From Gammaproteobacteria bacterium RIFCSPHIGHO2_12_FULL_63_22 (GTDB lineage Bacteria; Pseudomonadota; Gammaproteobacteria; Xanthomonadales; Xanthomonadaceae), in the NCBI GenBank assembly GCA_001801685.1, contig MGYJ01000088.1, positions 31,300 to 95,299 on the forward strand: a stretch of 64,000 nucleotides of DNA, written 5' to 3'. Below are positions 1,369-59,864 of this stretch, one piece after another. Position 1 is the stretch's first letter, and each line of letters starts with the position of its first letter. Under the pieces are notes generated by a model. The model saw nothing but the letters and a program-made list of their open reading frames with translations. It did not search any database and was not told the origin of the DNA. The translations under genes and the position numbers were made by a program.

Positions 1369-1380
1369 AGTTATACAACT
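1369..1380. promoter_or_regulatory. Palindromic operator, site 1 (AGTTATACAACT)
   Basis: One of ten near-identical 12-bp palindromes in the window; here 11 of 12 bases match AGTTATATAACT, with flanks ccT and Cg. It lies in the 91-bp divergent gap between the crotonase and the ACAD pair. On the plus strand it sits between a TTGACC hexamer (1362-1367) and TATGAC (1384-1389), spacing 16, so a bound protein would occlude this putative promoter. Confidence 0.75.
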
Positions 1381-1419
1381 CGCTATGACACAGAGGGCAA
1401 CAACGAGGCAAGTCCCGCA

Positions 1420-2511
1420 ATGAATTTCGACCTTAGCGATGAACAGAAAATGCTTGGCGAGCAAGCCCGGGCGCTGCTTTCCGACCTTTCGCCGTTCGAC
1501 CGGCTTCGCCACCTGATCGATTCGGGCGCCGATTGGGACGAGGAACTGTGGCGCTCGCTCGCCGAGATGGGCTTCCTCGGGGCGGCGATCCCCGAGGAAC
1601 ATGGCGGACTTGGCCTCGGCGCGCTCGACCTCGGCGTGATCATGGAGGCGCTGGGCGCCGCCAATGCCGCGGTGCCCTTCATGAGCTCGATCGTCCTCGC
1701 CGCCGAGGCCATCGCACTCGCGGGCAGCGAGGCGCAAAAGGCGGCGTGGCTCCCCAAGCTCGCTTCGGGCGAAGCGGTGGCGACCTTTGCCTATGCCGAG
1801 GGGCCGGGCCCGGTGTTTGCGGCTGGCGTGCAGCTTCGCGACGGAAGATTGACCGGCAGCAAGTCTCCGGTCGCCGATGCAGGCATCGCCGACATTGCGG
1901 TCGTACTGGTTGCGGGCGGCGGCTTCGCGCTGGTCGAACTCGATCAGCCCGGCGTGCTGCGCACGAAGCTCGAGAGCTTCGATCAGTTGCGCCCGCATTA
2001 TCGCCTCGATTTCATTGATGCGGCCGCCGAGGTCATGCCCGGTACCGGTAAACTCGACCGGCTGATCGATCAGGCGGCGGTGCAGGCGGCGTTCGAAGCG
2101 GCGGGCGCCGCCGAAGCCTGCCTGACGATGGCGCGCGACTATGCGATGGAACGGCAGATGTTCGGCCGCTCGCTCGCCGGTTATCAGGCGATCAAACACA
2201 AGCTTGCCGACGTCGCGGTCGCGACCGAGCTGGCAAGATCGAACGCATATTATGGCGGCTGGGCCGCCGAATCCTCGCCCGACGACTTGCCCGCCGCCGC
2301 CGCGGCGGCGCGCCTTTCGGGCATCAAATGCTTCGAGATGGCGGCGCGCGAAAATCTGCAGGTGCATGGCGGCATCGGCTACACGTTCGAGGCGAACTGC
2401 CATTTCTATTATCGGCGCGAGCGCATGTTGGCGGTGCATCTCGGAAACCGCGGTTTCTGGGCCGACCGCCTGCTGAACGCGCAGCCCGGCAGCCAGGCAA
2501 AGGCGGTATAA
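1420..2511 (+). CDS. Acyl-CoA dehydrogenase, small subunit of a heteromeric pair
   Basis: A 363-residue ACAD. The N-terminal helical domain contains IPEEHGGLGLGALDLGVIME (about residues 58-77). The middle domain is short and lacks the usual TEP.aGSD FAD/substrate motif, showing only TFAYAEGPGP. The C-terminal helical domain has QMFGRSLAGYQAIKHKLAD and QVHGGIGYTFE (about residue 319). It is followed after one base by a full-length ACAD, the arrangement seen for alpha2beta2 ACADs such as ChsE1-ChsE2 in sterol side-chain oxidation. I infer a heterotetramer in which this subunit contributes part of the FAD site. It is first in a rightward operon from palindrome site 1. Confidence 0.9.
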   Translation: MNFDLSDEQKMLGEQARALLSDLSPFDRLRHLIDSGADWDEELWRSLAEMGFLGAAIPEEHGGLGLGALDLGVIMEALGAANAAVPFMSSIVLAAEAIALAGSEAQKAAWLPKLASGEAVATFAYAEGPGPVFAAGVQLRDGRLTGSKSPVADAGIADIAVVLVAGGGFALVELDQPGVLRTKLESFDQLRPHYRLDFIDAAAEVMPGTGKLDRLIDQAAVQAAFEAAGAAEACLTMARDYAMERQMFGRSLAGYQAIKHKLADVAVATELARSNAYYGGWAAESSPDDLPAAAAAARLSGIKCFEMAARENLQVHGGIGYTFEANCHFYYRRERMLAVHLGNRGFWADRLLNAQPGSQAKAV

Positions 2512-2512
2512 G

Positions 2513-3736: not shown

Positions 3737-3739
3737 TCG

Positions 3740-6425: not shown

Positions 6426-6467
6426 TGTGCACTATCCCCTTGCGTGACTTGTGAGGATATATTACCT

Positions 6468-6479
6468 AGTTATATAACT
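6468..6479. promoter_or_regulatory. Palindromic operator, site 2 (exact AGTTATATAACT)
   Basis: A perfect copy of the 12-bp palindrome in its full context acCT-AGTTATATAACT-Cg. It is in the 74-bp gap between the divergent synthetase (leftward) and MaoC (rightward) operons. It ends 20 bp before the MaoC start, so it overlaps or lies close to that promoter, and it is 42 bp from the synthetase start. Confidence 0.78.
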
Positions 6480-11139: not shown

Positions 11140-11187
11140 CGGGCCCTCCCTAACCTTGGCCGTGCTGGCATACAACATATTTGACGT

Positions 11188-11199
11188 AGTTATATAACT
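11188..11199. promoter_or_regulatory. Palindromic operator, site 3 (exact AGTTATATAACT)
   Basis: A perfect 12-bp palindrome followed by Cg, in the gap between the thioesterase (leftward) and the ACAD operon (rightward). On the plus strand TTGACG (11181-11186) abuts it and CATAGG (11204-11209) follows at 17-bp spacing, so the operator fills the spacer of a plausible sigma70 promoter, as at site 1. Confidence 0.78.
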
Positions 11200-17189: not shown

Positions 17190-17224
17190 AGCTTCCTCTT
17201 GTCTGTTGTGATAAAGAAGTATAA

Positions 17225-17240
17225 CTAGGTTATATAAGAG
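17225..17240. promoter_or_regulatory. Palindromic operator variant, site 4
   Basis: The sequence ctaGGTTATATAAGag keeps the GTTATATAA core of the palindrome, but has one extra G after CTAG and a G for the last C. It lies in the 67-bp gap between the divergent QOR and NMO-like genes, the same position as the other copies. This is the weakest of the ten and may be a low-affinity site. Confidence 0.55.
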
Positions 17241-20291: not shown

Positions 20292-21359
20292 TTAGCCGAT
20301 GAGGCGAATGAGCTTTTCGGCCTCGGCGAAATTGCCGCGCACCAGCCGGTCGAAGAAGCGGCCGGTCTCGGCGCTCAAAATGCCCTTGGCGGCCTGCGCG
20401 ACCTTATATTCGAGGATGCAGCCGCCCTTGAACATCGCGAGGATGAGGTAATAGTCGAAGCTCGCCATGTCGCGACCGGTGCCCGCGGCATAATGCGCCA
20501 TCAATTCCTGCCGCGTCGGCCAGTCGCCGACATTGTAAAGGGCCTTTTCGGGGACATGATCGGGAAAGCGGTCGTCGCGGATGCTGTTGCAGAACCAGGC
20601 GAGGTCGAGCAGCGGATCGCCGATCGTCGACAGTTCCCAGTCGATCAGCGCCGTCAGCCTGCATGGCGGGTCGAAGGCGAACAGCGCGTTGGGGGTGCCC
20701 ACATCGCCGTGAATGATGCCGGCTTTGAAATCGTCGGGTATGTTCGCCCGCAGCCAGTCGCGCGTCAGCGCATAGCCCGGCAGCTCGCGCCAGTCGAAAT
20801 CATAGAGCTGCCTGTAACTTTTGATCTGGCCTTCCCAGCGATCGACCTGCCGCTCGAGGAAGCCGTCGGGGCGCCCGAAATCCTCGAGTCCGATGGCTTT
20901 GTAATCGACATTGGCGAGCGCGATGAGCCCGTCGACCATCGCGAAGGGCACTTCGCGAGCATGTGGAAGGGTGTCGAAAGGGGGGCGATCATGGATTTTC
21001 CCGTCGGTCAGGTCGGCGGGCCAGCCATCGACGAGATCCATGACATAGAAAGGCGCACCGATGACATCGGGGTCGGCGCAGCTGCCATGGCAGACGGGGT
21101 GGGGGACGGCGGTGCCGTTCAACGCGGTCAGTACCCGCGCTTCGCGCAGCACGCTCTTTTCGCTGCCGGGCGGCGGGACCGCGGGCGGGCGGCGAAGGAT
21201 CAGCGGCGTGCCGCCGCGGTTCAGCGACAGGATGACGTTCGACGTCCCGCCGTGAATCTTCTCGATTTCGAGCGGTCCGTTGCCGAGCGAGGGAATATGC
21301 ACATCGAGCCACGCCGTCAGTCGCACGCGATCGGCGAGCCCTTTCGCGTCGTCGCTCAC
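20292..21359 (-). CDS. Phosphotransferase-family (APH-like) kinase, ACAD10/11-type
   Basis: A 355-residue aminoglycoside-phosphotransferase-fold protein. It has the glycine-rich N-lobe KIHGGTSNVILSLNRGG, ILRRPP with the ATP-binding lysine region replaced by arginine-rich sequence, the catalytic loop IIHGDVGTPNALF and the metal-binding motif ALIDWELSTIGDPLLDLAW. This is the APH type found N-terminally in mammalian ACAD10/11. It would phosphorylate a hydroxyl on an acyl-CoA or similar metabolite, not an antibiotic. It sits between MarR (ATGA overlap) and an ACAD in the same operon. Confidence 0.88.
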   Translation of the reverse strand: MSDDAKGLADRVRLTAWLDVHIPSLGNGPLEIEKIHGGTSNVILSLNRGGTPLILRRPPAVPPPGSEKSVLREARVLTALNGTAVPHPVCHGSCADPDVIGAPFYVMDLVDGWPADLTDGKIHDRPPFDTLPHAREVPFAMVDGLIALANVDYKAIGLEDFGRPDGFLERQVDRWEGQIKSYRQLYDFDWRELPGYALTRDWLRANIPDDFKAGIIHGDVGTPNALFAFDPPCRLTALIDWELSTIGDPLLDLAWFCNSIRDDRFPDHVPEKALYNVGDWPTRQELMAHYAAGTGRDMASFDYYLILAMFKGGCILEYKVAQAAKGILSAETGRFFDRLVRGNFAEAEKLIRLIG

Positions 21360-21811
21360 CGGTCTTCTTCCCTCAGATAGGCTTCGATCCCGCTGCGGAT
21401 CGTGTGAAGCCGATCGGCGGCCTCGGCGAAGGCCGCGCTGTCGATCCGGTCGAGCACGGCCCTGGTCACTGCCTGTGCGCGATCATGGTCTGCGGTCTTC
21501 AGCGCCCGCCCCGCGTCGGTCGCGGCGATCAACGAGGCGCGCTTGTGATCGGGATTGCCCTCGAAGGATGCGAGACCGAGTTCGACGAGCCGGTTCGCGG
21601 CGCGCTGCACGACCTGACGCGGATGGCCGAGGCTGCGGCCGATCTGGGCCGCGGTCGGGGCGGTGTCCGCGTTCACCACCGCGGTGAGGACGGTCAGTTC
21701 CATCTCGGCCAGCCCGCTTGCGGCGCGCGTGTTGGCGTAGAGGGCCCGCATGCGTCCGCGCAAGCGTGCGACCTCGTCGGCGAATCGTTCGAAATCGGTA
21801 AAGCGCGTCAT
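21356..21811 (-). CDS. MarR-family transcriptional regulator
   Basis: A 151-residue winged-helix protein. LRGRMRALYANTRAASGLAEMELTVLTAV is followed by the recognition helix region TAAQIGRSLGHPRQVVQRAA and the wing LVELGLASFEGNPDHKRASL. It probably binds an aromatic or acyl-CoA ligand and controls its own operon (kinase-like, ACAD, SDR). A perfect 18-bp palindrome ends one base before its ATG, and the start codon lacks a Shine-Dalgarno sequence, so the mRNA may be leaderless. Its stop overlaps the kinase start as ATGA. Confidence 0.88.
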   Translation of the reverse strand: MTRFTDFERFADEVARLRGRMRALYANTRAASGLAEMELTVLTAVVNADTAPTAAQIGRSLGHPRQVVQRAANRLVELGLASFEGNPDHKRASLIAATDAGRALKTADHDRAQAVTRAVLDRIDSAAFAEAADRLHTIRSGIEAYLREEDR

Positions 21812-22302: not shown

Positions 22303-22706
22303 CCTGCCGGAACCATTCGCATCGTCGCGGTGGTCGTCCTGTTGCCGTTTGCATCGCTTGCGTACAGGGCAAGATCGATGCTTTCGCTGTCGCGCGACAC
22401 CACGACGCCACCGCATTCGATCGGTCCCGGAAAGGTCGGCTCGAGATACCGGACCGAAAATTGCGCCATGCGCGCCCGCTCGGGCGGCAACCAGATTTCG
22501 ACCGACCGGCACATATGGGCAAAGGTCAGCCAGCCGTGCACGATCACGTCGGGAAAGCCGCTTTCGATCATGAAGGGACGGTCCCAATGTTGCGGGACAT
22601 AGTCGTCGGCGGCGCCCGCATAGCGCACAAGGTCGCCGCGCGTGACGACGACCGAGAGGCGCGGGATCTGCTCGCCCGGTGCGATCTCGCCGAACGCGCG
22701 GGTCAA
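22299..22706 (-). CDS. MaoC-like hot-dog protein, C-terminal-type subunit
   Basis: A 135-residue single hot-dog protein. It holds the hydratase-2-like helix region DYVPQHWDRPFMIESGFPDVIVHGWLTF, with Asp and His spaced as in R-specific enoyl-CoA hydratases (DxxPxHxD-like). The start is TTG 22706, which overlaps the stop of the upstream MaoC-like gene as TTGA; there is no better start. It probably forms a heteromer with the 22703 product, as ChsH1/ChsH2-type split hydratases do in sterol side-chain degradation. Confidence 0.82.
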   Translation of the reverse strand: MTRAFGEIAPGEQIPRLSVVVTRGDLVRYAGAADDYVPQHWDRPFMIESGFPDVIVHGWLTFAHMCRSVEIWLPPERARMAQFSVRYLEPTFPGPIECGGVVVSRDSESIDLALYASDANGNRTTTATMRMVPAG

Positions 22707-23134
22707 AGGCTCACCGCGCTGACGCGGACGGTTGCGACATGCGCATCGGCCTGGTTGGTCAATTTCATCTCCGCGGTCTGAAACAGCATCGGTCCGCGCT
22801 TTCCCTCGCGAAGGTACGCATCAACATAACGGGCGCTCGCCCGTATTTCGTCGCCGGCGAGGATGGGCGCGCCGAGTTCGGCAATATCGTCGCTGTGGAG
22901 AAACATCGGCAGTCCGACGTCGAGGTCGATCAATCCGGCGATGGCCTCGGCGCAAAAGGTCGAAATATAGGTGGGCGCCGCAACCGGGCCGTTGGTCCGG
23001 TCGAAATATCTTGGATCGGTCTGGCCGGTGGCTGCGGCGAATTTGATCAAGGCGCCGGCCTCGATCGTGCGCACGAGCGGCCCGCGCGTTTCGCCGATAC
23101 GCATTCTGAGTTTTTCAAGGACCGCCTCGAGCAT
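22703..23134 (-). CDS. MaoC-like hot-dog protein, N-terminal (FAS1-DH-like) subunit
   Basis: A 143-residue protein that resembles the N-terminal non-catalytic hot-dog of two-domain hydratases: LVRTIEAGALIKFAAATGQT, DPRYFDRTNGPVAAPTYIST and GAPILAGDEIRASARYVDAY. It is the first gene of a leftward three-gene operon (two MaoC-like proteins, SnoaL-like). Together the pair would equal the single 428-residue MaoC protein at 6500, so the window has both the fused and split forms. Confidence 0.82.
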   Translation of the reverse strand: MLEAVLEKLRMRIGETRGPLVRTIEAGALIKFAAATGQTDPRYFDRTNGPVAAPTYISTFCAEAIAGLIDLDVGLPMFLHSDDIAELGAPILAGDEIRASARYVDAYLREGKRGPMLFQTAEMKLTNQADAHVATVRVSAVSL

Positions 23135-23140
23135 CCACTT

Positions 23141-23159
23141 ATCTCACTTAGTATGAGAT
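23141..23159. promoter_or_regulatory. Inverted repeat ATCTCA-N7-TGAGAT in divergent promoter region
   Basis: A 6-7-6 inverted repeat just upstream of the split MaoC operon and before the divergent DECR-like SDR. It does not match the AGTTATATAACT palindrome. A TTGACA hexamer on the plus strand follows at 23163-23168. It may be an operator for an unidentified regulator; the repeat is short, so chance is possible. Confidence 0.4.
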
Positions 23160-24654: not shown

Positions 24655-24666
24655 AGTTAGACAACT
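24655..24666. promoter_or_regulatory. Palindromic operator, site 5 (AGTTAGACAACT)
   Basis: A 10/12 match to the palindrome, 19 bp before the start of the first GntR gene and not in a divergent gap. The flank Cc replaces Cg. Position just upstream of a regulator of the expected family suggests autoregulation. Confidence 0.65.
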
Positions 24667-24685: not shown

Positions 24686-25462
24686 GTGAATATGGAAAAT
24701 GGCAGCGCGCGCATCCGGGTGCCGAAAACGTCCGAACTGGTTGCCGACCAGATCAGGGCCCAGATCGTCCGGGGCGAACTCAAGGAAGGGGATTCGCTCC
24801 CGCCCGAAGGCACGCTGATGGCCTCGCTCGGCATCTCACGGCCTACCTTGCGCGAGGCCTTCCGGATTCTGGAGGCTGAAAATCTGATCAGCGTTGTGCG
24901 CGGTTCGCGTAGCGGCGCGCGCGTGCACCAGCCATCGACCGAGCTGGTCTCGCGCTATGCCGGCTATCTTCTCGAGGCGCAGGGAACGACGATCGCGGAT
25001 CTTTATGCCGCACGTCTCGCGATCGAGCCGACGGTGGTGCGCTGGCTTGCAACGGCCAAGGGCAAGACGCCGGGCATGCCGCAACTGAAGCAGGTTCTCG
25101 CCGAGCTTGGCCAGATGATGCAGGACGAGCGCTATGAAGAGTTTATCGACAATGTGTCACGCTTTCACCAGACCGTCGTCGAGGCTGCGGGCAACAAGAC
25201 GCTCAGCTTCATGAGCCGCATGCTGCTCAATCTCGCGCGGACGCACCAGAACGACTATCAGCGCCGCCATCCGCGGACGACCGAGGACCGGCTCAAGAGC
25301 CTGCGCGTCGGGTACAAATCCTATGACAAGCTGGTGACGCTGATCGAAGCCGGCGATGTCGAGGGCGCGGTATCCCACTGGCGGCTTCACCTGCGCAATG
25401 CCAACGAAACCTGGGCGACGCGCGGCGAGGGCGAGCGGATCGTCGACTCGCTGCACGGATGA
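24686..25462 (+). CDS. GntR-family regulator, FadR/FCD type (GntR-1)
   Basis: A 258-residue regulator. The winged helix covers about residues 15-78: TSELVADQIRAQIVRGELKE, SLPPEGTLMASLGISRPTLR and VVRGSRSGARV. The C-terminal all-helical FCD ligand-binding domain includes LYAARLAIEPTVVRWLA, FHQTVVEAAGNKTLSFMSRM and HWRLHLRNANETW. FCD regulators sense organic acids or acyl-CoAs and often repress. A copy of the recurrent palindrome lies just upstream, so it is a prime candidate for the regulon's repressor. GTG 24686 or ATG 24692 could be the start. Its stop overlaps an acyl-CoA synthetase start as ATGA. Confidence 0.9.
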   Translation: MNMENGSARIRVPKTSELVADQIRAQIVRGELKEGDSLPPEGTLMASLGISRPTLREAFRILEAENLISVVRGSRSGARVHQPSTELVSRYAGYLLEAQGTTIADLYAARLAIEPTVVRWLATAKGKTPGMPQLKQVLAELGQMMQDERYEEFIDNVSRFHQTVVEAAGNKTLSFMSRMLLNLARTHQNDYQRRHPRTTEDRLKSLRVGYKSYDKLVTLIEAGDVEGAVSHWRLHLRNANETWATRGEGERIVDSLHG

Positions 25463-26967
25463 CCCCGACCTTCATCGACGCCATGATCGCCGCGGCGGCG
25501 GCCAACCCGGGTGCGTCGCTGACCGTTGCCTCCGATGTCAAACCTTGCACCGCTTCGCTGGGCGACGTCGTAGCATCGGGCCGCCGGATGGGAACGCGCA
25601 TGGCTGCGGCAGGTGTCGCGCCCGGCGATATCGTCGCCTGTATGTTGCCCAACTGGCGCGAATGGCTCGTCGTCGCCGTTGCCGCCGCGCAGAGCGGGGC
25701 GGTCCTGCTGCCCATCGTGACGATTTACGGCGCGAAGGAGCTGGGGTTCATCCTGCGTCAGTCGGCCGCCAAATGGCTGTTTACGCCCGACATGTTTCGC
25801 GGGGTCGATTATGGCCGCGTCGTTGCCGAATGCGGCGACCTTCCGGGACTCGATCGGCACGTCGCGATCGGCCAGGAATTCGACCTCCTCGAAGCCGAAG
25901 GGCCGATCGCAGATCCCGCGGCGGTCGCCGGCGAAGACCTTGCCTTGCTCGTCTATACCTCGGGCACCACCGCCGAGCCCAAGGGCGTGATGCACAGCGC
26001 GCGCGGATTTCTGGCGGAACTGGAAACGGTGCGCGCGATGCGCGGGGGAACGGACGACGAAGCGGTCATCTCCCCCTGGCCGCCGGGACATGTGGCCGGC
26101 GCCTTGTCGATGTACCGCTTCCTTTGCCAGGCGACGCCGCTCGTCCTGATGGATCAGTGGGACGCCGCGCTCGCGGCAGCGCTGATCGACCGGCACAAGG
26201 TGACCTCGACATCGGGAACCCCGTTTCACCTGAGCGGGATGATTGCCGCTGCCGACGAACATGGTCACGACCTGACCTCGCTCCGCCAGTATCTCGTCGG
26301 CGCGGCGCCGGTGCCGCCGTCGTTGATCGAGCGTTGCCAGCGGCAGGGTCTCGCGGTCTATCATTGCTATGGATCGAGCGAGCATCCGACCGTCACCTCG
26401 GGCGCTGTCGACGACCCGCTCGACAAGCAGCTTCATACCGAGGGCCGGGCGATGCCGGGGTCGCAGATGCGTTTCGTCGACGACGACGGCAACGATGTCC
26501 CGGCCGGCGAAGATGGAGAAATCTGCACGCGAGGTCCCGAACTTTTCATGGGCTATCTCGACCCCGCGCTCGATGTGAGCGCCTTCCTGCTGGACGGCTG
26601 GTATCGCACGGGCGATATCGGCCGGCTCGACGAAGGCGGCTATCTTCTGATCACCGACCGCAAGAAGGACATCATCATTCGCGGCGGCGAGAATATCTCG
26701 TCGAAGGAGGTCGAGGCCGTGCTATTGAGGCACCCCGCGGTCGCCGATGTCGCGGTCGTTGCGGCGAAGGACGAACGTATGGGCGAGGTGGTACACGCCT
26801 GCGCCGTTCTCGCGCCGGGTGCCGCGCTATCGCTCGGCGATGTGCGCGATCATTTCGGTGCCGCCGGCATCGCAAGGCAAAAGACACCCGAGCGGCTGAC
26901 GATCGTCGCCGAGCTGCCGCGCAACGCATCGGGCAAGGTGCTCAAGCATCAGTTGCGCGACACCTAG
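25459..26967 (+). CDS. Acyl-CoA synthetase (AMP-forming)
   Basis: A 502-residue ANL ligase with YTSGTTAEPKG at residues 166-176, CYGSSEHPTVTSG (A5), WYRTGDIGRLDEGGYL (A7/A8), DRKKDIIIRGGENISSKEVE (hinge) and the catalytic lysine in NASGKVLKHQL. It resembles cyclohexanecarboxylate- and medium-chain-CoA ligases. It is co-transcribed with and translationally coupled to GntR-1, so substrate activation and sensing are linked. It overlaps the convergent hydroxylase gene by three bases. Confidence 0.92.
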   Translation: MTPTFIDAMIAAAAANPGASLTVASDVKPCTASLGDVVASGRRMGTRMAAAGVAPGDIVACMLPNWREWLVVAVAAAQSGAVLLPIVTIYGAKELGFILRQSAAKWLFTPDMFRGVDYGRVVAECGDLPGLDRHVAIGQEFDLLEAEGPIADPAAVAGEDLALLVYTSGTTAEPKGVMHSARGFLAELETVRAMRGGTDDEAVISPWPPGHVAGALSMYRFLCQATPLVLMDQWDAALAAALIDRHKVTSTSGTPFHLSGMIAAADEHGHDLTSLRQYLVGAAPVPPSLIERCQRQGLAVYHCYGSSEHPTVTSGAVDDPLDKQLHTEGRAMPGSQMRFVDDDGNDVPAGEDGEICTRGPELFMGYLDPALDVSAFLLDGWYRTGDIGRLDEGGYLLITDRKKDIIIRGGENISSKEVEAVLLRHPAVADVAVVAAKDERMGEVVHACAVLAPGAALSLGDVRDHFGAAGIARQKTPERLTIVAELPRNASGKVLKHQLRDT

Positions 26968-27764: not shown

Positions 27765-27840
27765 CCCGTTTCTCCCGTTTGCGCGAGCATCGATCCCATG
27801 GCTCAGGGAATAGGTCCAATGCATAATTATTGCTGTTTCA

Positions 27841-27855
27841 ATGCAGACGCTGCAT
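27841..27855. promoter_or_regulatory. LysR-type binding box ATGCAG-ACG-CTGCAT
   Basis: A 6-3-6 inverted repeat that contains T-N11-A, the LysR-type consensus spacing. It lies between the divergent hydroxylase and LysR genes and immediately before the preferred LysR start, which it helps to fix at 27865. Confidence 0.6.
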
Positions 27856-27864
27856 GGACGGAAT

Positions 27865-28770
27865 ATGGACCTGCGCAAACTTCGTCACGCCGTCTTTGTC
27901 GCCGATTGGGGCAATTTCACCACCGCGGCCGCGCGGCTGCACCTGTCGCAGCCCGCACTCAGCCGCAGCATCCAGACGCTCGAGGACGAATTGGGGCTGA
28001 AGCTGTTCGAGCGGGTCGCCGCGGGGGTTGTGACCACCGTCGCCGGAGCGGCCGTGATCGAGGAAGCGCGCGGTCTGCTGGAACAGGCCGACGGGCTGAG
28101 AGCGCATGCGCAGCGGCTGTCGCGCGGGGAAACCGGCCGGGTGCGCATCGGGGTGGGGCCGATGTTCGCGGGTCTGCTCACCGACTATCTGCGCGATGTG
28201 TGGCAGCCTCTACAGCCCGTCGAGGTGCAGGTGCACATCCTGCCGGTCGAGCGGCTGGTCAGCCGGCTACTCGCCGACGAGCTCGATTTCTTCGTTGCCG
28301 ATGGCCGCGCGGCGCGGGATCATCCGGCGATCGCGGCCGAGAGGGTGGGCGAGATGCCGGTCGGCTATCATGTCCGGCAGGGGCATGACCTTGCGGGACG
28401 CAAGCGGCTGACGGTGGCCGATATCGCCGCATATCCGCGCGCCTCACCCAATTTGCCGGCGGTTCCGCTCGACGCGGGCGACGCGGTACGCGCATCGAGC
28501 CGTGCCGACGCGGGACGTCTCTTTTGCGAACAATTGCCGACGCTCGTCGAGCTGACCGTGCATAGCGACGCCGTCCTCCTCGCGCTTTCGGCGGCGGTCG
28601 CCGGAGAGATTGAGGCCGGGCGCCTTGTAACGCTCGACATTGCCGGGATAGCCGGCTGGTCGGCGCAGATCGTCATCGCGCGCCGCGCCCGGCTCCATGC
28701 GACGCCGACCGTCGAACGCTACGCCGCAGCGATGGCGGACCATGTCCGGCGTTGCTGGATCGAGCGCTAG
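27865..28770 (+). CDS. LysR-family transcriptional regulator
   Basis: A 301-residue LTTR. The N-terminal HTH is MDLRKLRHAVFVADWGNFTT followed by LHLSQPALSRSIQTLEDELG. The effector domain begins GRVRIGVGPMFAGLLTDYL. ATG 27865 is chosen because it gives the usual MDLRxLR start and is preceded by GGACGGA; an in-frame ATG at 27841 coincides with the operator. It is divergent from the sterol-desaturase-like hydroxylase, and its stop overlaps the convergent SDR by four bases. Confidence 0.9.
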   Translation: MDLRKLRHAVFVADWGNFTTAAARLHLSQPALSRSIQTLEDELGLKLFERVAAGVVTTVAGAAVIEEARGLLEQADGLRAHAQRLSRGETGRVRIGVGPMFAGLLTDYLRDVWQPLQPVEVQVHILPVERLVSRLLADELDFFVADGRAARDHPAIAAERVGEMPVGYHVRQGHDLAGRKRLTVADIAAYPRASPNLPAVPLDAGDAVRASSRADAGRLFCEQLPTLVELTVHSDAVLLALSAAVAGEIEAGRLVTLDIAGIAGWSAQIVIARRARLHATPTVERYAAAMADHVRRCWIER

Positions 28771-33930: not shown

Positions 33931-33933
33931 ATC

Positions 33934-35154: not shown

Positions 35155-35161
35155 GATTTTG

Positions 35162-36520
35162 TCAGTCTCCGGCGGCGTGCATCGCGCGCAGTTTTTTTGA
35201 TACGAGGCCAAGCATGATCAGCACGAGGGGTGCGAACACGACCGAAACGACGATCAGCGCCATGCCGAGCTGGCCGGGATCGCGCAGCATATAGTCGCTC
35301 ACGAATGCGGTGAAGGGTGCGCCGATCCCGCTGCCGACGACGGTAACGATAGCGAGGAAAATCGCCGAGACCTGGCCGCGCAGATGCTGCGGGGTGTGAA
35401 TTTGCAACGCCGATACGGCATAGCCGAGGAAGGGGTAGCAGAGCACATAATAGATGGCGTTGAGGATCAGGAAGATCCACGGATCGCCGCTCCAGAGCGC
35501 CACGATGTTGATCGGCACCGCGATCACCACACCCCATATCTGATAGCGCGTGTGGGCGTCGGCGATGCCGCGGCGATAGAGCCAGTCGACGAGCATCGCG
35601 CCGCCCACCTGGCCGACGGCGGCCGCGAGGATGTGCTGGATACCCCATGCGAGGCCGACCTTGCCGACGTCCCAGCCGAATTCGCGGACCATGAAGGTCG
35701 GCGTCCAGGCGGCATAGGCGTTGGTGATCACGTTGAGCAAGCCGAACCCGAGCGGCAGGCCGACAAAGAGCATCGGATGGCGCTTGAACAACTGGCCGAG
35801 CGGGATGCCGTGCGGGCTCGATCCGCTCGCGGCGGCAAGACGGGCTGCTTCGCGGGCGGCCTTGCGATCATATTCGCGGACCATCAACACAAGCGGGGCG
35901 AGCAATATGGTGATGCCGCCGACGGCGATGAAAACGAGTTGCCAGGGGCGTATGTTGCCAACGACGGGCAGATGGACCTCGCCCGCCCCCGCCGCGAGAT
36001 GGACGATCGCGCCGCCGAGCACGACGGCGAGCCCGCCGCCGATCACGGCGCCCAGCGAATAGACTGCGATTGCGGTCGACAGCCTTTCTTTGGGAAATTG
36101 CTCTGCGATCAGCGAGTGCGCGGCAGGCGTCAGCGCCGCCTCTCCCATGCCGACTCCCATGCGGCCGAGCATCAGACCCGGAAAGCTGCGTGCCAGACCC
36201 GACCCCAAGGTAGCGAAACCCCACAGGGTGACACCCGCCAGCGTAATCCAGCGCCGCGAGAAACGGTCGACCAGCCAGCCCATCTGCAGGCCGCACAGCG
36301 CAAAGAACAGACCGAAGGCCGGTCCCATCATAAGGCTGATCTGGAAATCGGTAAGGTCCAGATCGCGTTTGAGCGGCTCGACCATCATGGTGATGATCTG
36401 CCGGTCGATGAAGGAGAAAATGTAGAGCAGCAGAAACAGCCAGATCATCGGCCATCCGCGAAGGAAACCCCTCGCGGCTGTGCCGGGTTCGACCGCCGGG
36501 CCGCCATCAGCAATGTGCAT
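35162..36520 (-). CDS. MFS transporter, Spinster-like
   Basis: A 452-residue inner-membrane carrier with about twelve hydrophobic segments, starting WPMIWLFLLLYIFSFIDRQI and ending ALIVVSVVFAPLVLIMLGLV. The loop 2-3 signature is GWLVDRFSRRWITLAGVTLW. FSFIDRQI at the first helix is typical of Spinster-type sphingomonad carriers that accompany TonB receptors. It probably carries the substrate across the inner membrane after TonB-dependent outer-membrane uptake. Start ATG 36520 behind GAGGAACG. Second gene of the receptor operon, with a hairpin upstream. Confidence 0.9.
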   Translation of the reverse strand: MHIADGGPAVEPGTAARGFLRGWPMIWLFLLLYIFSFIDRQIITMMVEPLKRDLDLTDFQISLMMGPAFGLFFALCGLQMGWLVDRFSRRWITLAGVTLWGFATLGSGLARSFPGLMLGRMGVGMGEAALTPAAHSLIAEQFPKERLSTAIAVYSLGAVIGGGLAVVLGGAIVHLAAGAGEVHLPVVGNIRPWQLVFIAVGGITILLAPLVLMVREYDRKAAREAARLAAASGSSPHGIPLGQLFKRHPMLFVGLPLGFGLLNVITNAYAAWTPTFMVREFGWDVGKVGLAWGIQHILAAAVGQVGGAMLVDWLYRRGIADAHTRYQIWGVVIAVPINIVALWSGDPWIFLILNAIYYVLCYPFLGYAVSALQIHTPQHLRGQVSAIFLAIVTVVGSGIGAPFTAFVSDYMLRDPGQLGMALIVVSVVFAPLVLIMLGLVSKKLRAMHAAGD

Positions 36521-36568
36521 GATCGTTCCTCGATTACGGCACCGCCAGACGGCGCGCCGGGAAGAAGG

Positions 36569-36604
36569 CTCCGTCGGGCCGGCTTGCGCCGGACCCCGAC
36601 GGAG
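36569..36604 (-). terminator. Intercistronic hairpin between TonB receptor and MFS genes
   Basis: CTCCGTCGGG pairs with CCCGACGGAG and an inner GCCGG/CCGGC stem closes a four-base loop; in the leftward direction it is followed by CCTTCTTCCC. The T tract is weak, so it may act as an attenuator or mRNA stabiliser, giving more receptor than transporter, not as a full terminator. Confidence 0.6.
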
Positions 36605-36615
36605 GAGGTGGAGGA

Positions 36616-38766
36616 TCAAAATTCAAAGGAAACCCGTCCGCCGAATGTCCGCGGCCGGCCATAGAGTGCGGAGTCCGCCGTTCCTCCGGCGAGGACGTAG
36701 ACGGTATAGGTCTCGTCGAGCAGATTCTTGCCCCACAGCGTGAAGGTGAGATTGGGGTTCGCGAGACGGAAGCCGATCTCGCCGTTCACCAGCGTTCTTG
36801 CACCTTCGACAATCCGGTTGTCGGCATCGCGATAGCTTTTGCCGGCATGATAGGCATTGGCGGACAGGAGCAGGCTGTTGCCATTGTCCAGTTCATACTC
36901 ATAGTCGAAGCCGGAATTGACCGAGAAGAGCGGCGTGCGGATGATCTTGTTGCCCGTCGCGTCGAAGGTGATGATGCGATTTCCGCCCGTCGGCAGCGGC
37001 TCGTAACCGACCGCATTCTCGAAGTCGGTAAACTCGCCCCAGAGCTTCGAAAAGCCGAGCCGCACGTTGAGGCCGCGTGTCGGGCGGCCGAACAACTCGC
37101 CTTCGATGCCATAGATTTCCGCCGCACCCGCATTTTGCAGCGTCGACAGATTGTTGATGCGGATGTTGACCTGCATGTCGGTATAGTCGGTGTAGAAGGC
37201 GGCGAAATTGGCGTTGAGCCAGCCTCCGAGCTTGAGCTTGGTGCCCAGTTCATATTGCCAGACATTTTCCGGATTGACCGGGACGGTGCTGAAGGTCGAT
37301 GCCCCGAACAGCCCGGATTTGAAGCCCTTGCCGGCCTTCGCATAGATATTGGCATCGCTGTTGATGCGATATTGCAGCGTCGCGGAGGGAGTGAAGACTT
37401 CCCAGCGATGCTCCGCCTCCAGCGTCGCGCCGCTGATATTATTCTCGATGAAGAAGTCCTTGTGCTCGTTGGTGTAGCGCCCGGCGAGCGTCAGCGAGAG
37501 GCTGTCGGTGAAATCATAGGTTCCCTGTGCATAGATGGCGACCGAATCGGTGCCGACGTTCGAGGTGACGTCGCTGGAGCCCGGACCGGCCGGATTGCCG
37601 TTGGTGATGACCTGCTGCCGCGTATAGCCCGCATCTTGGTTGAAATAGCTCCCGCCGACGATCCAGTTGAGCCGCCCGGTCTCGCCGGTCAGATAAAGCT
37701 CCTGCATGAAGGAACGCGCGAAATAGTCGACCGGCAGGCGCGACCGTTCGATGTTGGTGCTGTCGACGTCGGAATCGATGAACTGCTCGGCATTGTCGTA
37801 GGCGCTGATCGAGGTCAGGTCGGCGAAGCCGAGGTCGGCGCGAACGGTCAGCGACGCCGAATCCTGCCTCAGATTGAGCTGCCCGCCCATCCCGGACGTT
37901 TCGTTCGGCCGGGTCGGGAGGATCACCCCGGGGGTCTGCGCCGTGACGACATTGTTGAGATAGGGCTGCTGGCCCGTCGCCAGCGTATCGTCGCGCGTGA
38001 CATGCCCATAGGCGACGATCAGGTCGAGCCAGTCGGCCGGGCGGACGAGAAGCTTGGTCCGCAGCGCCCATGTGTCGACCCAGCCCTTTTTCGGGCCGCC
38101 ATTGAGGTCGGTGATATAGCCGTCGTCCTTGTTGAGGGTGAAGGCGACGTTCGCCGCGACGACATCGTCGCCGCCGTTGGCGTAAAGTTTCAGGATGCGC
38201 TCGTCGTAGCTGCCATAGCTCAGGCTGCCCCGCAGCATCTCGTCATTGTCGGGATCGAGCGTCACGATATTGATTGCGCCGCCGGTGCTGTTGCGCCCGA
38301 ATAGCGCGCCCTGCGGGCCTTTGAGGACCTCGACGCGCGAGACATTGTTGAGCTCGGTGGCGATGCTGCCGAGAAAAGGTTGATAGACGCCGTCGATGTA
38401 GACGGGGACGAGCGATTCATCGCCGGCGGCGACGCCGCGCGTGCCGAGACCGCGGATCGTCGGCTGCGGCGAGAAGGACGATTGGGTGAAGTTCAGGCTG
38501 GGGGTGATCTGGGTCAGGTCGTTGGTCGACGAAATGCCCGCGCTTTCGAGCGCCTGTCCCGAAAAGGCCGAAATCGCGATCGGCACGTCCTGCAGCCGTT
38601 CTTCGCGCCGCTGTGCCGTGACGACGATGTCGCCGGCATCCGGCGCCTCTCCGGCGGCGCTTTCGGTTTCGTCGGCCGGCGCGGTTGACTGCGCATGGGC
38701 GGCGCTGGCGCCGAACAGGCTGGCAAACACGAGCGCGCGAATGGATGTGGCGGCGATGGTCAACAT
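36616..38766 (-). CDS. TonB-dependent outer-membrane receptor
   Basis: A 716-residue receptor. A signal peptide is visible (SIRALVFASLFGASAAHAQ, cleavage after residue about 26), then the TonB-box-like DIVVTAQRR, plug motifs QDVPIAISAFSG and VEVLKGPQGALFGRNSTGG, and a 22-strand-type barrel ending in GRVSFEF with terminal Phe. It would import a large hydrophobic substrate with energy from TonB-ExbBD (not in this window). First gene of a leftward operon. Its promoter region carries two 7-9-7 inverted repeats and a divergent LysR gene. Confidence 0.93.
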   Translation of the reverse strand: MLTIAATSIRALVFASLFGASAAHAQSTAPADETESAAGEAPDAGDIVVTAQRREERLQDVPIAISAFSGQALESAGISSTNDLTQITPSLNFTQSSFSPQPTIRGLGTRGVAAGDESLVPVYIDGVYQPFLGSIATELNNVSRVEVLKGPQGALFGRNSTGGAINIVTLDPDNDEMLRGSLSYGSYDERILKLYANGGDDVVAANVAFTLNKDDGYITDLNGGPKKGWVDTWALRTKLLVRPADWLDLIVAYGHVTRDDTLATGQQPYLNNVVTAQTPGVILPTRPNETSGMGGQLNLRQDSASLTVRADLGFADLTSISAYDNAEQFIDSDVDSTNIERSRLPVDYFARSFMQELYLTGETGRLNWIVGGSYFNQDAGYTRQQVITNGNPAGPGSSDVTSNVGTDSVAIYAQGTYDFTDSLSLTLAGRYTNEHKDFFIENNISGATLEAEHRWEVFTPSATLQYRINSDANIYAKAGKGFKSGLFGASTFSTVPVNPENVWQYELGTKLKLGGWLNANFAAFYTDYTDMQVNIRINNLSTLQNAGAAEIYGIEGELFGRPTRGLNVRLGFSKLWGEFTDFENAVGYEPLPTGGNRIITFDATGNKIIRTPLFSVNSGFDYEYELDNGNSLLLSANAYHAGKSYRDADNRIVEGARTLVNGEIGFRLANPNLTFTLWGKNLLDETYTVYVLAGGTADSALYGRPRTFGGRVSFEF

Positions 38767-38781
38767 GGCTCTCCCTGCTTG

Positions 38782-38804
38782 GATCCGTTCGTTTGCGACG
38801 GATC
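38782..38804. promoter_or_regulatory. Inverted repeat GATCCGT-N9-ACGGATC
   Basis: A perfect 7-9-7 inverted repeat starting 15 bp upstream of the TonB receptor start. It has the same arm length and spacer as the LysR-like box at 38862-38884, in the same intergenic region, though a different sequence. It may be a second regulator site, e.g. an activation site near the receptor promoter. Confidence 0.5.
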
Positions 38805-38861
38805 TGACGCTCGCCTAGCTGCCATCGGCCGGAGGATTGATCATCAGCGATATTCGGGGTT

Positions 38862-38884
38862 ATCTATCACGAAACGAGATAGAT
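38862..38884. promoter_or_regulatory. LysR-type box ATCTATC-N9-GATAGAT
   Basis: A perfect 7-9-7 inverted repeat containing ATC-N9-GAT, the LTTR consensus. It ends nine bases before the LysR ATG at 38894, the position of a typical autoregulatory recognition site, and argues against the longer TTG-initiated frame starting at 38837. Confidence 0.62.
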
Positions 38885-38893
38885 GGGACTGAC

Positions 38894-39790
38894 ATGCTTG
38901 ATCTTCGACAGGTGCTGAGCTTCGTGACGATCGCCGAGAAGCGTTCGTTTACCCAGGCGGCGGAAACCCTCGAAATCGCGCAGTCGGCCGTCTCGCAGCA
39001 CATCCGGCGGCTGGAGGATCAGCTACAGCTCACCTTGCTGACCCGAAATTCGCGCTCGGTCGCCCTCTCGGCAGACGGGCAGGCTATGCTGCCGCATGCG
39101 CAGGCCCTGCTCGACTCCGAGCAGAATATCCTCGCCGCGGCCCGGGCTCTCCGCGCGGCCACCAATTCGATCCTGCGGATCGGCGCCTATTCGTTCGCCG
39201 CCGACCAGCGCATGGATGCGATCGATGCGTTCCAGAATCGATATCCCGAACTGCGACTGGAAATCGTCTACGGCACGCGCGCCGAATTGATGGCGAAGCT
39301 GCGCGACGGCACGCTCGATATTTTTTTCTCGCTGTCGGCGCCATCGGTGACCGAACCCGATCTTGCCGAAACCCACGTCGCCCGCCGCTATTGTCACATT
39401 GCCGTGCCGCCAACACACCGGCTGGCGGGGAGCGAAGGCATTTCGATCGACGATCTCGCCGACGAGCAGGTGGCCATTTCTCCGGGAAACCAGGATTCGC
39501 CGGTCGTCTCGCTCGTCTATGCCGGACTCATTGCGCATGGCGCGCAGCTGATTGCCGCGCCGGAAGCCGATCGCCGCGCCATCGCGCGCTTCGCGCGCTC
39601 GCGCGGTCTACCGCATTTGCTATGGACGACGCGGATATTGCCGCGACACGAGGAAGAAGGGGAGGAGATTTATCCCTTGCTCGGCGATGCCCCGCGCATC
39701 GATACGGTGATCTACAGCCGGCCCGGCGATCGTCGTCGCTGGGTCAGGCTGATCCTCGCCGCTTTCGCCGATCGCGACAAGCCGCGTTAG
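38894..39790 (+). CDS. LysR-family transcriptional regulator
   Basis: A 298-residue LTTR that starts MLDLRQVLSFVTIAEKRSFT, then LEIAQSAVSQHIRRLEDQLQ as the recognition helix. The effector domain starts SILRIGAYSFAADQRMDAID and is followed by DIFFSLSAPS. It is divergent from the TonB receptor operon and is its likely activator. The upstream TTG start would put 19 residues across the LTTR box. The gene ends ten bases before the convergent alcohol dehydrogenase. Confidence 0.9.
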   Translation: MLDLRQVLSFVTIAEKRSFTQAAETLEIAQSAVSQHIRRLEDQLQLTLLTRNSRSVALSADGQAMLPHAQALLDSEQNILAAARALRAATNSILRIGAYSFAADQRMDAIDAFQNRYPELRLEIVYGTRAELMAKLRDGTLDIFFSLSAPSVTEPDLAETHVARRYCHIAVPPTHRLAGSEGISIDDLADEQVAISPGNQDSPVVSLVYAGLIAHGAQLIAAPEADRRAIARFARSRGLPHLLWTTRILPRHEEEGEEIYPLLGDAPRIDTVIYSRPGDRRRWVRLILAAFADRDKPR

Positions 39791-45381: not shown

Positions 45382-45393
45382 AGTTGTATAACT
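45382..45393. promoter_or_regulatory. Palindromic operator, site 6 (AGTTGTATAACT)
   Basis: An 11/12 match whose reverse complement equals site 1 (AGTTATACAACT). It is in the gap between the six-gene leftward operon and the SDR-synthetase operon. On the minus strand it is abutted by TTGACT, as at sites 1 and 3. Confidence 0.75.
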
Positions 45394-45430
45394 AAGTCAA
45401 TTATGTCGAACACTTCGGGAGAGACGAATT

Positions 45431-49168: not shown

Positions 49169-49180
49169 ACTTATTAAACT
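49169..49180. promoter_or_regulatory. Palindromic operator variant, site 7 (ACTTATTAAACT)
   Basis: On the minus strand it reads acCT-AGTTTAATAAGT-g, keeping the arms of the palindrome with an altered core, and the same ccTAG flank. It is in the 72-bp gap between the isochorismatase-like (leftward) and SDR (rightward) operons, as the others are. Confidence 0.6.
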
Positions 49181-49222
49181 AGGTAATAGATGTGATCCGG
49201 GAAGAGAGCAAGGGAGAGAGCG

Positions 49223-51656: not shown

Positions 51657-51666
51657 GGTGCCGGCA

Positions 51667-52683: not shown

Positions 52684-52743
52684 CGTCATCGGCGCAATTT
52701 ACGCTGCGGAATTCGCATTCCACTTGTCTATCTTGTTAGACCT

Positions 52744-52755
52744 AGTTATATAACT
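52744..52755. promoter_or_regulatory. Palindromic operator, site 8 (exact AGTTATATAACT)
   Basis: A perfect copy with the full ccT-...-Cg flanks, 45 bp before the TonB receptor start and behind the DUF2889 gene. It is not in a divergent gap, so it serves the receptor promoter alone. Uptake would then share control with the catabolic operons. Confidence 0.78.
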
Positions 52756-57757: not shown

Positions 57758-57805
57758 GGCAATCTCCTCTCGACTCGGCGGTCAATCTTGCAATAAGAAA
57801 TACCT

Positions 57806-57817
57806 AGTTATATAAGT
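57806..57817. promoter_or_regulatory. Palindromic operator, site 9 (AGTTATATAAGT)
   Basis: An 11/12 match in the context acCT-AGTTATATAAGT-gg, between the amidohydrolase gene and GntR-2. It lies 67 bp before the GntR-2 start and 48 bp from the amidohydrolase start, so either gene or both can be controlled by it. Confidence 0.72.
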
Positions 57818-57884
57818 GGACGCAAGGATTTTGTGGATATTGGCTGCGTCTCTCGATATAGAGATACCTATTAAGGAGAGGGTG

Positions 57885-58592
57885 ATGGATATCCGTCTAG
57901 CCAATGAAACCCTGGCCAGCCGCACGGCACGCGAGCTGGCCAATCTCAGCCTTGCCGCCGATCCCGGGGCATATCTGGGCGCCGAAGACGATCTGCTCGG
58001 CCGGTTCGGAATCAGTCGTCCGACGCTCCGGCAGGCGGCAAAAATCGTCGAGCGCGACCGGCTCATCAGCGTCCGGCGCGGAACGAAAGGCGGATATTTC
58101 GCCGAACGGCCCGACGCGCGCGACGCCATCCAGTCGCTCGCCCGCTTCCTCCGGATCAAGGGCGCAACGCTTGCGGACGTCATCCACGTCGTGCGTCCGG
58201 TTTCCGAAGAGGCGGTGGTCGCCGCTGCCCGCGGCCGCACCGATGCCGATATCGAACGATTGCACATGTTCGTCGCTGCGCTCGACGCTCGTGACACCCC
58301 GCGCGAAATGATCGCTGCCGAACTCGAAATGTCGCGGCTGATCGCGGGCATGAGCGGCAACCCGGTGGTCGAGCTGGTCATGGAGATCGGATACAGCTTT
58401 GGCCGCGAAGAAAATGGCGACCTCTACGCCGACGCGAGCCGGCGCGAGCATACCCGCGACATGCAGCGCAGGATATGCCTCGCGATCATCGAGGGCGACG
58501 CGGACATCGCGCGGCTCATGATGCGTCGCAGGTCCGAACAGTTCGACGCATGGCTGGCGCCTTCGCGCGCCGCGGAGGATCGTCTGGCATGA
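57885..58592 (+). CDS. GntR-family regulator, FCD type (GntR-2)
   Basis: A 235-residue regulator. The winged helix includes DDLLGRFGISRPTLRQAAKI and LISVRRGTKGGYFAERPDA; the FCD domain includes FLRIKGATLADVIHVVRPVS and EEAVVAAARGRTDADIERLH. ATG 57885 is chosen for the well-placed AAGGAG (57873-57878); the frame could extend upstream to 57816, which would run into palindrome site 9. It shares only the family with GntR-1. Its stop overlaps the next start as ATGA. It is a second candidate for the regulon's DNA-binding protein. Confidence 0.88.
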   Translation: MDIRLANETLASRTARELANLSLAADPGAYLGAEDDLLGRFGISRPTLRQAAKIVERDRLISVRRGTKGGYFAERPDARDAIQSLARFLRIKGATLADVIHVVRPVSEEAVVAAARGRTDADIERLHMFVAALDARDTPREMIAAELEMSRLIAGMSGNPVVELVMEIGYSFGREENGDLYADASRREHTRDMQRRICLAIIEGDADIARLMMRRRSEQFDAWLAPSRAAEDRLA

Positions 58593-59815
58593 GCATCGTC
58601 GAATATCGCGGCTTCGCCGGCGTCCGGCTCGAAGCCGAGGTCATCGGGGCCGAGGAGGATCCGGCGGTCCTGCTCGTTCATGGAGCAGGGCAGACGCGCA
58701 CCGTCTGGACCAGCATCGCGGGCGCGCTCGAAAAGGCGGGCCGGCGGGTGATCAGCCTCGACCTCAGGGGGCATGGCGGGTCGGAGTGGCCCGCCGACGG
58801 CCGCTATGATTTCGAAGCCATGGTCGAGGATCTGCGCGCCGTCCTCGCGCAGATGGGGACGCGCCCCGTGGTCGTCGCCTCGACCCTCGGAGGCTGGGTC
58901 GCCAGCGCGGCGCTCGAACATGATGCCGCCGTTCTCGCCTCGGGGCTGGTGCTCGTCGATCTCGCCGTCAACCTCGACCCTGCCGTGTCGCAGCGGATCG
59001 GCGAACGATTGCGCGAGGCGGCGGCGCTCGCGCCGGGGCAGGCGCAATGGGACGTCCGGCTGTTCGATGCCTTCGATAGCAACGCCATGGCCGAAAGGCT
59101 TGGGGGCGTGGCCGCAAATCTCGCGCTCCCGGCGCTCTATGTCCGGGGGGCGATGAGCGAACTGGTATCGCACGACGAAGCCGCGGCCTTCGTCGCGCAG
59201 CTTCCCCAAGGCGAGCTTGTCGAGATCGATGACGCCGCCCTCGTGGTGACCGATGACCGTGTCGATGCGCTCGGTGCGCATCTGATAGATTTTCTCGAAC
59301 GCCGCGCGCCGCGCGGCTCGCCCGAGTATCGCGCGGGTTCGGATGCGCGCACCTTTCGCGATGCGCTCGGCTGCTTTGCGACCGGGGTGACGATCGTCAC
59401 GGCAATGTGCCCCGACGGCACGCCGATCGGTCTCACCGCCAACAGCTTTACGTCGGTCTCGCTCGACCCGCCGTTGCTGCTCGTGTGTATCGCCAACAAT
59501 GCCGGCAGTGCCCCCTATCTTCGCGACGCCGAGCGATTTGCGGTCAACGTCCTCCAGATCGGCCAGCAGCCGGCGTCGAACCGCTTCGCCGGGAAGGGCG
59601 AGGACCGGTTTGCCGCAACCTCCTGGGAAGTCGGGGAGTTCGGAACCCCCGTTCTCGGCGGAACGCTGAGCAGTTTCGAGTGCGCGCGCGACGCGGTCCA
59701 CGACGGCGGCGACCATTTTATCCTCGTTGGCCGCGTCCTCAAGGCGATCTTCGAACCGCGCCGGGACCCCTTGCTCTATTTCCGCGGCAAGTATCGCAAG
59801 CTTCATTTCGCTTGA
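58589..59815 (+). CDS. Fusion of a degenerate alpha/beta hydrolase and a flavin reductase
   Basis: A 408-residue two-domain protein. Residues about 1-240 have the alpha/beta-hydrolase fold (LLVHGAGQTRTVWTSIAG; DLRGHGGSEWPADGRYDF), but the triad is lost: the elbow reads ASTLGG with Thr99 for Ser, RGAMSELVS with Ser190 for Asp, and DDAALVVTDDR with Leu218 for His. Residues about 250-408 are a flavin reductase domain (GVTIVTAMCPDGTPIGLTAN, SLDPPLLLVCI, NRFAGKGEDRFA, GGDHFILVGRVL), likely supplying reduced flavin to a partner oxygenase. None is in this window. Coupled to GntR-2 by ATGA. Confidence 0.85.
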   Translation: MSIVEYRGFAGVRLEAEVIGAEEDPAVLLVHGAGQTRTVWTSIAGALEKAGRRVISLDLRGHGGSEWPADGRYDFEAMVEDLRAVLAQMGTRPVVVASTLGGWVASAALEHDAAVLASGLVLVDLAVNLDPAVSQRIGERLREAAALAPGQAQWDVRLFDAFDSNAMAERLGGVAANLALPALYVRGAMSELVSHDEAAAFVAQLPQGELVEIDDAALVVTDDRVDALGAHLIDFLERRAPRGSPEYRAGSDARTFRDALGCFATGVTIVTAMCPDGTPIGLTANSFTSVSLDPPLLLVCIANNAGSAPYLRDAERFAVNVLQIGQQPASNRFAGKGEDRFAATSWEVGEFGTPVLGGTLSSFECARDAVHDGGDHFILVGRVLKAIFEPRRDPLLYFRGKYRKLHFA

Positions 59816-59852
59816 CGACTGGACAAGCACGCGCCAGCATCATATCAAACCT

Positions 59853-59864
59853 AGTTAGATAACT
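59853..59864. promoter_or_regulatory. Palindromic operator, site 10 (AGTTAGATAACT)
   Basis: An 11/12 match with the flank acCT, 21 bp before the thiolase-like gene start and behind the fusion gene; not in a divergent gap. It serves the thiolase-like/DUF35/CaiB operon. Confidence 0.75.

Follow-up and report, generated by a model that had tools for sequence, protein, structure and literature searches.

A repeated 16-bp promoter element points to one regulon across a CoA-dependent catabolic cluster of Sphingopyxis, with a GntR-type repressor as its probable reader

We describe a short repeated element at the promoters of a large CoA-dependent catabolic gene cluster, and the repeats are well supported, on comparative grounds, as the predicted operators of one regulon covering most cluster promoters. 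The window (the whole 64-kb stretch of DNA analysed, G000:C88:31300-95299, on contig C88, one of the 99 that make up a 4.256 Mb genome) encodes a regulator, GntR-1, that is 100% identical to the copy in a metagenome-assembled genome (MAG) labelled Sphingopyxis sp. WM.032 (G395, the same strain). An initial annotation of this DNA had proposed a single regulator for most of the cluster. That proposal is well supported by where the sites lie, by the way the best matches keep to a single contig, and by the presence of sites at the corresponding promoters of relatives. One regulator protein, probably a GntR-type repressor encoded within the cluster, would almost certainly bind this element.

The search word was the 12-mer AGTTATATAACT, with mismatches counted on the 64-kb window and shuffled sequence or the reversed pattern as control. 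At ≤3 mismatches the window holds 12 matches, whereas 100 dinucleotide shuffles averaged 1.35 and never exceeded 4; all 12 lie in non-coding DNA, which makes up 4.1% of the window (own gene calls), and none is inside a gene. When the 26 gaps alone were shuffled, which preserves their AT-richness, 7 matches were seen vs. 0.005 expected at ≤1 mismatch and 12 vs. 0.415 expected (maximum 3, 200 shuffles) at ≤3 mismatches. The ten sites first listed, seven of them between divergent genes by our gene calls, had been placed correctly to within a few bases (that given at 17225 really spans 17215-17230 on the minus strand), as had the three exact 12-mers (6468, 11188 and 52744) and the four with one mismatch (1369, 45382, 57806 and 59853), the others having two (24655) or three (the variants listed at 17225 and 49169). 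The list was correct in substance but missed a site at 23137-23152 and three more on the same contig outside the window (C88:19290, 101689 and 104592). Start codons near 17215, 23137 and 24655 were chosen by us. Also outside the window, a dyad-like ACCTCGCTTACTAGGT with 3 mismatches is found at C88:20257-20272, in the gap from which a LysR gene and a CoA ligase gene diverge.

Extending the search to the full genome, as had been suggested, gave an answer of two parts. All four exact copies of the 12-mer and five of six one-mismatch copies are on the window's contig, but loose counts did not separate signal from control, with 14 matches vs. 40 for the reversed pattern in the own genome (≤2 mismatches) and 5-9 vs. 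2-14 in 14 close genomes (≤1 mismatch). Whole-genome counts were rejected as proof because reversed-pattern controls were often equal or higher, and only the best matches and their places carry weight. The four off-cluster sites of this search all fall within stop-to-stop open frames of at least 100 aa and are therefore probably chance. Among 395 family genomes the exact 12-mer occurs in two, the window's own (four copies) and G278 (one copy).

Conservation was followed in relatives obtained by a locus search queried with GntR-1, comprising 13 close relatives (76-88% identity) and the same-strain MAG. Cluster DNA was fetched from nine of the 13, seven as whole regions (G403 as two contigs), whilst for G407 and G408 only contigs already shown to hold matches were taken, which biases these two; shared cluster proteins are mostly 75-95% identical in the fetched relatives. 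The eight promoters tested were chosen for having a site on the window's contig, and the counts cover testable gaps only, some gaps being missing or unmappable in some genomes. A site was present in 61 of 61 gaps of the nine relatives, or 69 of 69 including the own genome (8 in that genome itself, 53 in the 53 gaps of the seven relatives taken as whole regions, and 8 in G407 plus G408), and 61 of these 69 sites have 0-1 mismatches to the 12-mer, seven have 2 and one has 3. By promoter, and including the own genome, the site was found in 9/9 gaps at 1365, 6464 and 52740 (TonB receptor), 7/7 at 11184, 8/8 at 45382 (three with 2 mismatches to the 12-mer), 10/10 at 59849 and 10/10 at 57802, the gap between gntR-2 and the amidohydrolase (0-3 mismatches). 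Scored with a position weight matrix (PWM), the g40-g41 interval (17215; it also spans the dehydrogenase gene) reached ≥21 in 6/6 genomes including the own, with G396 and G398 carrying exact 12-mers at a distance of 17 bp from g41, and nine comparison gaps scored ≤2 in every genome tested; the PWM was trained on ≤2-mismatch sites from the same genomes and its scores are partly circular, which the mismatch counts and shuffles are not. The site at 23137 has a counterpart before the same SDR gene in G399, another lies ~2.4 kb before gntR-1 in L034, and the gene flanking 49169 was not found in the fetched relatives. Alignments show letter-by-letter identity at the site blocks with diverged flanks. 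What comparative genomics takes as the mark of a regulon, sites kept at the same promoters in related genomes, is found here.

The element had been described as a 12-bp palindrome, which is only a part of the conserved unit. The consensus of 53 distinct Sphingopyxis-type sites is an asymmetric 16-mer, ACnTAGTTATAYAAsT, whose left ACnT is an extension without mirror image (A, C and T kept in 51/53, 52/53 and 50/53 sites), and a different dyad appears in distant relatives. The own genome has seven exact and two one-mismatch copies of the 16-mer, all on C88. Sphingopyxis-type sites superpose the half-site ACnTAGTT on a second dyad made of AGTTAT and ATAACT, and the variant ACCTAGTTTAATAAGT at 49169 stands 2 mismatches from the 16-mer and also 2 from the dyad form. 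By eye, in the alignments, the site falls between the two elements of TTGACC-N16/17-TATGAC, facing the dehydrogenase pair, and of TTGTCA-N17-TAATAC, facing the CoA ligase, and over the -10 of TTGTCT-N17-TATATA at the TonB receptor promoter; a clear -35/-10 pair was not seen at some other site-bearing promoters. As the sites overlap promoter-like elements, repression through them is likely. Directly before gntR-2, at 57862-57873, another stretch is conserved, AGATACCTATTA, which reads AGATACCTGTTA in several relatives; it is similar to the operator's left part.

Table 1 Predicted operator sites and candidate regulator genes (window coordinates)
Feature	Position	Strand	Flanking genes	Remarks
Operator ACCTAGTTATACAACT	1365..1380	+	enoyl-CoA hydratase (-) / acyl-CoA dehydrogenase pair (+)	0 mismatches to 16-mer
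Operator	6464..6479	+	AMP-binding CoA ligase (-) / FAS1_DH/MaoC-type hydratase operon (+)	
Operator	11184..11199	+	acyl-CoA thioesterase (-) / second acyl-CoA dehydrogenase pair (+)	
Variant operator ACCTAGTTATACTTCT	17215..17230	-	Zn-dehydrogenase (-) / nitronate-monooxygenase-type gene (+)	2 mismatches
Variant site	23137..23152	-	FAS1_DH (22703-23134, -) / SDR (+)	3 mismatches
Weak site, doubtful	24655..24666	.	before gntR-1	2 mismatches to 12-mer, PWM 11
Operator ACTTAGTTATACAACT	45382..45397	-	enoyl-CoA hydratase operon (-) / SDR/CoA ligase (+)	
Variant operator ACCTAGTTTAATAAGT	49169..49184	-	isochorismatase-type gene (-) / SDR (+)	
Operator	52740..52755	+	before TonB-dependent receptor	
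Operator	57802..57817	+	amidohydrolase (-) / gntR-2 (+)	
Operator	59849..59864	+	before thiolase, OB-fold protein, CoA-transferase	1 mismatch
GntR-1, FadR-subfamily GntR + FCD domain	24686..25462	+		favoured candidate binder
GntR-2, FCD-domain GntR-like regulator	57885..58592	+		rival or co-regulator
MarR-type regulator	21356..21811	-		disfavoured; PF12802
LysR-type regulator	27841..28770	+		disfavoured
LysR-type regulator	38894..39790	+		disfavoured

The reach of the element is unexpectedly wide, extending into Actinomycetota. GntR-1 homologues at 47-56% identity with nearby sites occur in an Acetobacteraceae MAG (G409), a Rhodospirillales MAG (G410), a Novosphingobium (G411) and a Sphingomonas paeninsulae plasmid. 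Five of ten places in G409 (≤2 mismatches to the 16-mer) fall on its 108 kb cluster contig, of 4.4 Mb, and five of ten in G410 (≤3 mismatches) on its 70 kb cluster contig, many of these cluster-contig sites lying ≤70 bp from the mapped ends of cluster homologues. On the S. paeninsulae plasmid, the gap flanked by an enoyl-CoA hydratase and the GntR-1 homologue contains GGTTATATAACC, and GGTTATATAACT precedes an aldo/keto reductase. On two Rhodococcus plasmids, 13/14 places fall in a 75 kb island of 721 kb and 13/18 in an 84 kb island of 704 kb, the island bounds having been drawn after the matches were seen. A true dyad form, ACnTAGTTAACTAnGT, is closer in 8/12 sites of W02 and 5/9 of W03 (both Rhodococcus) and the asymmetric Sphingopyxis form in 4/12 and 4/9; Sphingopyxis-type genomes have the asymmetric form only, ties aside. 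At ≤2 mismatches the dyad was seen 8 and 5 times vs. 0 in ten dinucleotide shuffles per island. On one plasmid all ten dyad matches in the annotated fetched stretches are intergenic (3/13 fall outside those stretches), one of them adjoining a GntR gene in that gene's own divergent gap, and the same island shares DUF2889, phosphotransferase, CoA-transferase, thiolase and OB-fold gene types with the window. A Rhodococcus plasmid island (L244, NZ_CP083975.1 178000-226000) shares pathway gene kinds and operator with the Sphingopyxis cluster, and this likeness suggests transfer between phyla. The exact dyad occurs in one of 398 phylum-sample genomes, as a single copy (L245, G652:C2:354944). No site cluster was seen in the Massilia, Rhodococcus DMU1 and Streptomyces relatives (gap shuffles for Massilia only). 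Co-occurrence statistics within the family were impossible, the best GntR-1 match outside its own genome being 33% identical (by E-value, 395 genomes), and a comparison of GntR-1 with phages gave distant matches only.

GntR-1 joins an N-terminal GntR winged helix (PF00392, E=2e-17) to a C-terminal FCD domain (PF07729, E=1.6e-18), and its predicted structure (mean predicted local distance difference test score, pLDDT, 83) has fold matches to FCD proteins. The helix-turn-helix and the wing (RGSR[ST]GAR) are conserved among its homologues, the recognition helix reading SRPTLR. A regulator of GntR-1 type, or a GntR with the same wing, is present wherever a motif cluster was seen (G411, with few sites, reads RGSRTGAS), and both Rhodococcus plasmids carry GntRs with the wing RGSR[ST]GAR[VI], one of these genes having a site in its own divergent gap. 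Plasmids with a GntR-1 homologue of wing RGARGGA, RGAHGGA or RGVHGGA showed no site cluster, M. branderi giving a weak signal.

The closest solved relative of GntR-1 by profile is NanR, the GntR/FCD sialic acid repressor of Escherichia coli (6on4, E=2.4e-22), also its best fold match by E-value (4e-9, template-modelling score (TM) 0.43). According to PMC8012715, NanR represses a regulon of several operons and engages DNA asymmetrically. GntR-1 is not a NanR orthologue, however, with 110.7 bits vs. an NCBIfam cut-off of 260 (GntR-2 reaches 52 bits with this subfamily model) and a different operator consensus; NanR binds GGTATA repeats cooperatively, whereas most promoters of the present set have a single 16-bp element with the core ACnTAGTTA, and pathway and effector differ as well. 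FadR, an acyl-CoA-responsive GntR, has the same domain architecture as GntR-1 and controls CoA-dependent catabolism, as GntR-1 would, its operator being different from the present one; the fold matches of GntR-1 to 1hw1, 1e2x and 4p9u have TM ~0.4 at 15-19% identity. The FadR-subfamily operator consensus is TNGTNNNACNA (Rigali 2002, quoted in PMC2230225), and in this quoted form it is fitted by TAGTTATACAA, and fully by TAGTTATAYAA only where Y is C (10/53 sites), T being one base off (43/53 sites), whilst a spacer of two bases sets the Rhodococcus dyad TAGTTAACTA apart from it.

The motif follows same-wing GntRs where GntR-2 or MarR was not found, and for this reason GntR-1 is our favoured candidate binder, held with only slightly more belief than doubt; the co-occurrence supports the earlier suggestion of a GntR regulator, as a prediction. 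Several observations weigh against it. The site before gntR-1 is poor vs. the full motif and none was found there in 7/7 relatives (3-5 mismatches; 1/8 gaps including the own genome), such that the initial statement that the sites cover both GntR genes is well supported for gntR-2 but not for gntR-1. All relatives were found via GntR-1, whose presence in them is thus by construction, the sample holds no cluster with GntR-2 but without GntR-1, and GntR-2 occurs in 13/13 close relatives, which therefore do not separate the two. GntR-2 was not found even in the same-strain MAG G395, which shows absence from a MAG to be weak evidence. The Rhodococcus islands also hold GntRs with other wings, and the plasmid totals (16 and 18 vs. 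11 and 13 for the reversed pattern) are a modest excess, clustering rather than total count being the signal on these plasmids. In M. branderi, which has a different wing, 3/11 gaps score ≥10 vs. 0.22 expected, its best score being reached by 16/300 shuffles. Finally, the site does not match the FadR-subfamily consensus, as quoted, exactly.

Given that the relatives were found through GntR-1 and that the gntR-2 promoter has a conserved site, GntR-2 stays a serious rival, under which the regulon would be real and GntR-1 would control something else, a reading we regard as unlikely but by no means negligible. A conserved site in a regulator's own gap is the usual sign of autoregulation, although this gap is shared with the amidohydrolase, and the recognition helix is likewise SRPTLR in most GntR-2 members; its FCD domain is detected on the longer frame 57816-58592 (PF07729, E=6e-8) and PF00392 is not listed at 1e-5. 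However, a GntR-2 orthologue was not found in G410, a MAG with motif sites in which MarR was not found either, and the GntR-2 type was not seen on the two site-bearing Rhodococcus plasmids (plasmids searched, chromosomes not), whilst the gntR-2 homologues of S. paeninsulae and G409 have no site at their own promoter. The SRPTLR helices of both proteins would also suit an operator used by both paralogues, competing or as mixed dimers and so giving rise to the asymmetric site, as would the two superposed dyads and the exclusive asymmetric form of Sphingopyxis-type sites, but that form is also found on the Rhodococcus plasmids without the GntR-2 type, and we consider joint use distinctly improbable. 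A tie of the asymmetric form solely to GntR-2 was rejected on the same grounds. Of a similarly low probability, if slightly higher, is a wider scheme in which a GntR with the wing RGSR[ST]GAR and ACnTAGTTA operators travelled between Alphaproteobacteria and Actinomycetota with a CoA-catabolic island and the Sphingopyxis operator was remodelled for two-input control by two paralogues; if true, the remodelled operator would be a composite of two overlapping dyads, and two GntR paralogues would read one site.

A regulator outside the cluster, the MarR or a LysR as binder is less probable again. MarR-family operators of CoA-linked aromatic catabolism are AT-rich palindromes over promoters, much as seen here, and the local MarR lies inside the cluster and is kept in 10/13 close relatives (78-82% identity). 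Yet no MarR orthologue was found in G401, G407 and G408, three close relatives that keep the motif, nor in G410, and no site stands in the gap of the MarR gene in 7/7 genomes including the own; the LysRs had no match in the stretches fetched from nine relatives (fetched stretches only, not whole genomes). The local MarR and LysRs are disfavoured as binders. The loose genome-wide counts, which do not exceed the reversed-pattern control, speak for chance or for a composition effect of AT-rich gaps, but the gap-only shuffles, the exact copies on one contig and the same-promoter conservation all contradict this, and we give it next to no probability.

By Pfam, the cluster holds acyl-CoA dehydrogenase pairs, enoyl-CoA hydratases, MaoC/FAS1-type hydratases, SDRs and a P450, together with CoA ligases, nitronate-monooxygenase-type genes, CoA-transferases, TonB receptors and a thiolase with a ChsH2-type OB protein, and it extends past both window edges. 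An identity as 9,10-seco steroid degradation was rejected, as among ten window proteins compared with NCBIfam the HsaB model reached 160 bits vs. a cut-off of 230 and the IpdE2 model 110 bits vs. 450. A single frame at 58589-59815 fuses an alpha/beta hydrolase to a flavin reductase, which is HsaB/FerA-like at a score below cut-off, and is kept at 80-86% identity in the fetched relatives. Two stretches, 26964-28770 and 32905-39790, resemble insertions, the fetched relatives having no match to them or only matches at <40% identity; they carry FA hydroxylase, LysR, aldo/keto reductase, CoA-transferase, MFS and TonB receptor genes. In the S. paeninsulae cluster, the annotation gives AtuA (acyclic terpene utilisation) as two overlapping genes (L019:6801-8578), and the AtuA match on the window's contig covers the whole model.

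If GntR-1 is the reader, a dimer would sit on the 16-mer over the -35/-10 of the target promoters and block RNA polymerase, until an intermediate of the pathway (probably an acid or the corresponding CoA thioester) releases it, and release would jointly induce TonB uptake, CoA activation and what may be beta-oxidation-like and ring-opening steps. Among the titles listed by string searches of open-access text (15 of 17 papers in one of them), none concerned such an operator, and two dealt with regulators of phytosterol degradation in mycobacteria. The regulon would be new, of a known kind; what goes beyond the initial annotation is how the site is really built, that it is kept at the same promoters in relatives, and that it extends to Actinomycetota. 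The result gives a map of a ~70-75 kb regulon in Sphingopyxis, and a DNA element by which distant bacteria can be searched for related clusters and their regulator. Tests of how GntR operators and their readers stay matched across phyla would become possible, and the system provides an inducible switch with which to look for the substrate.

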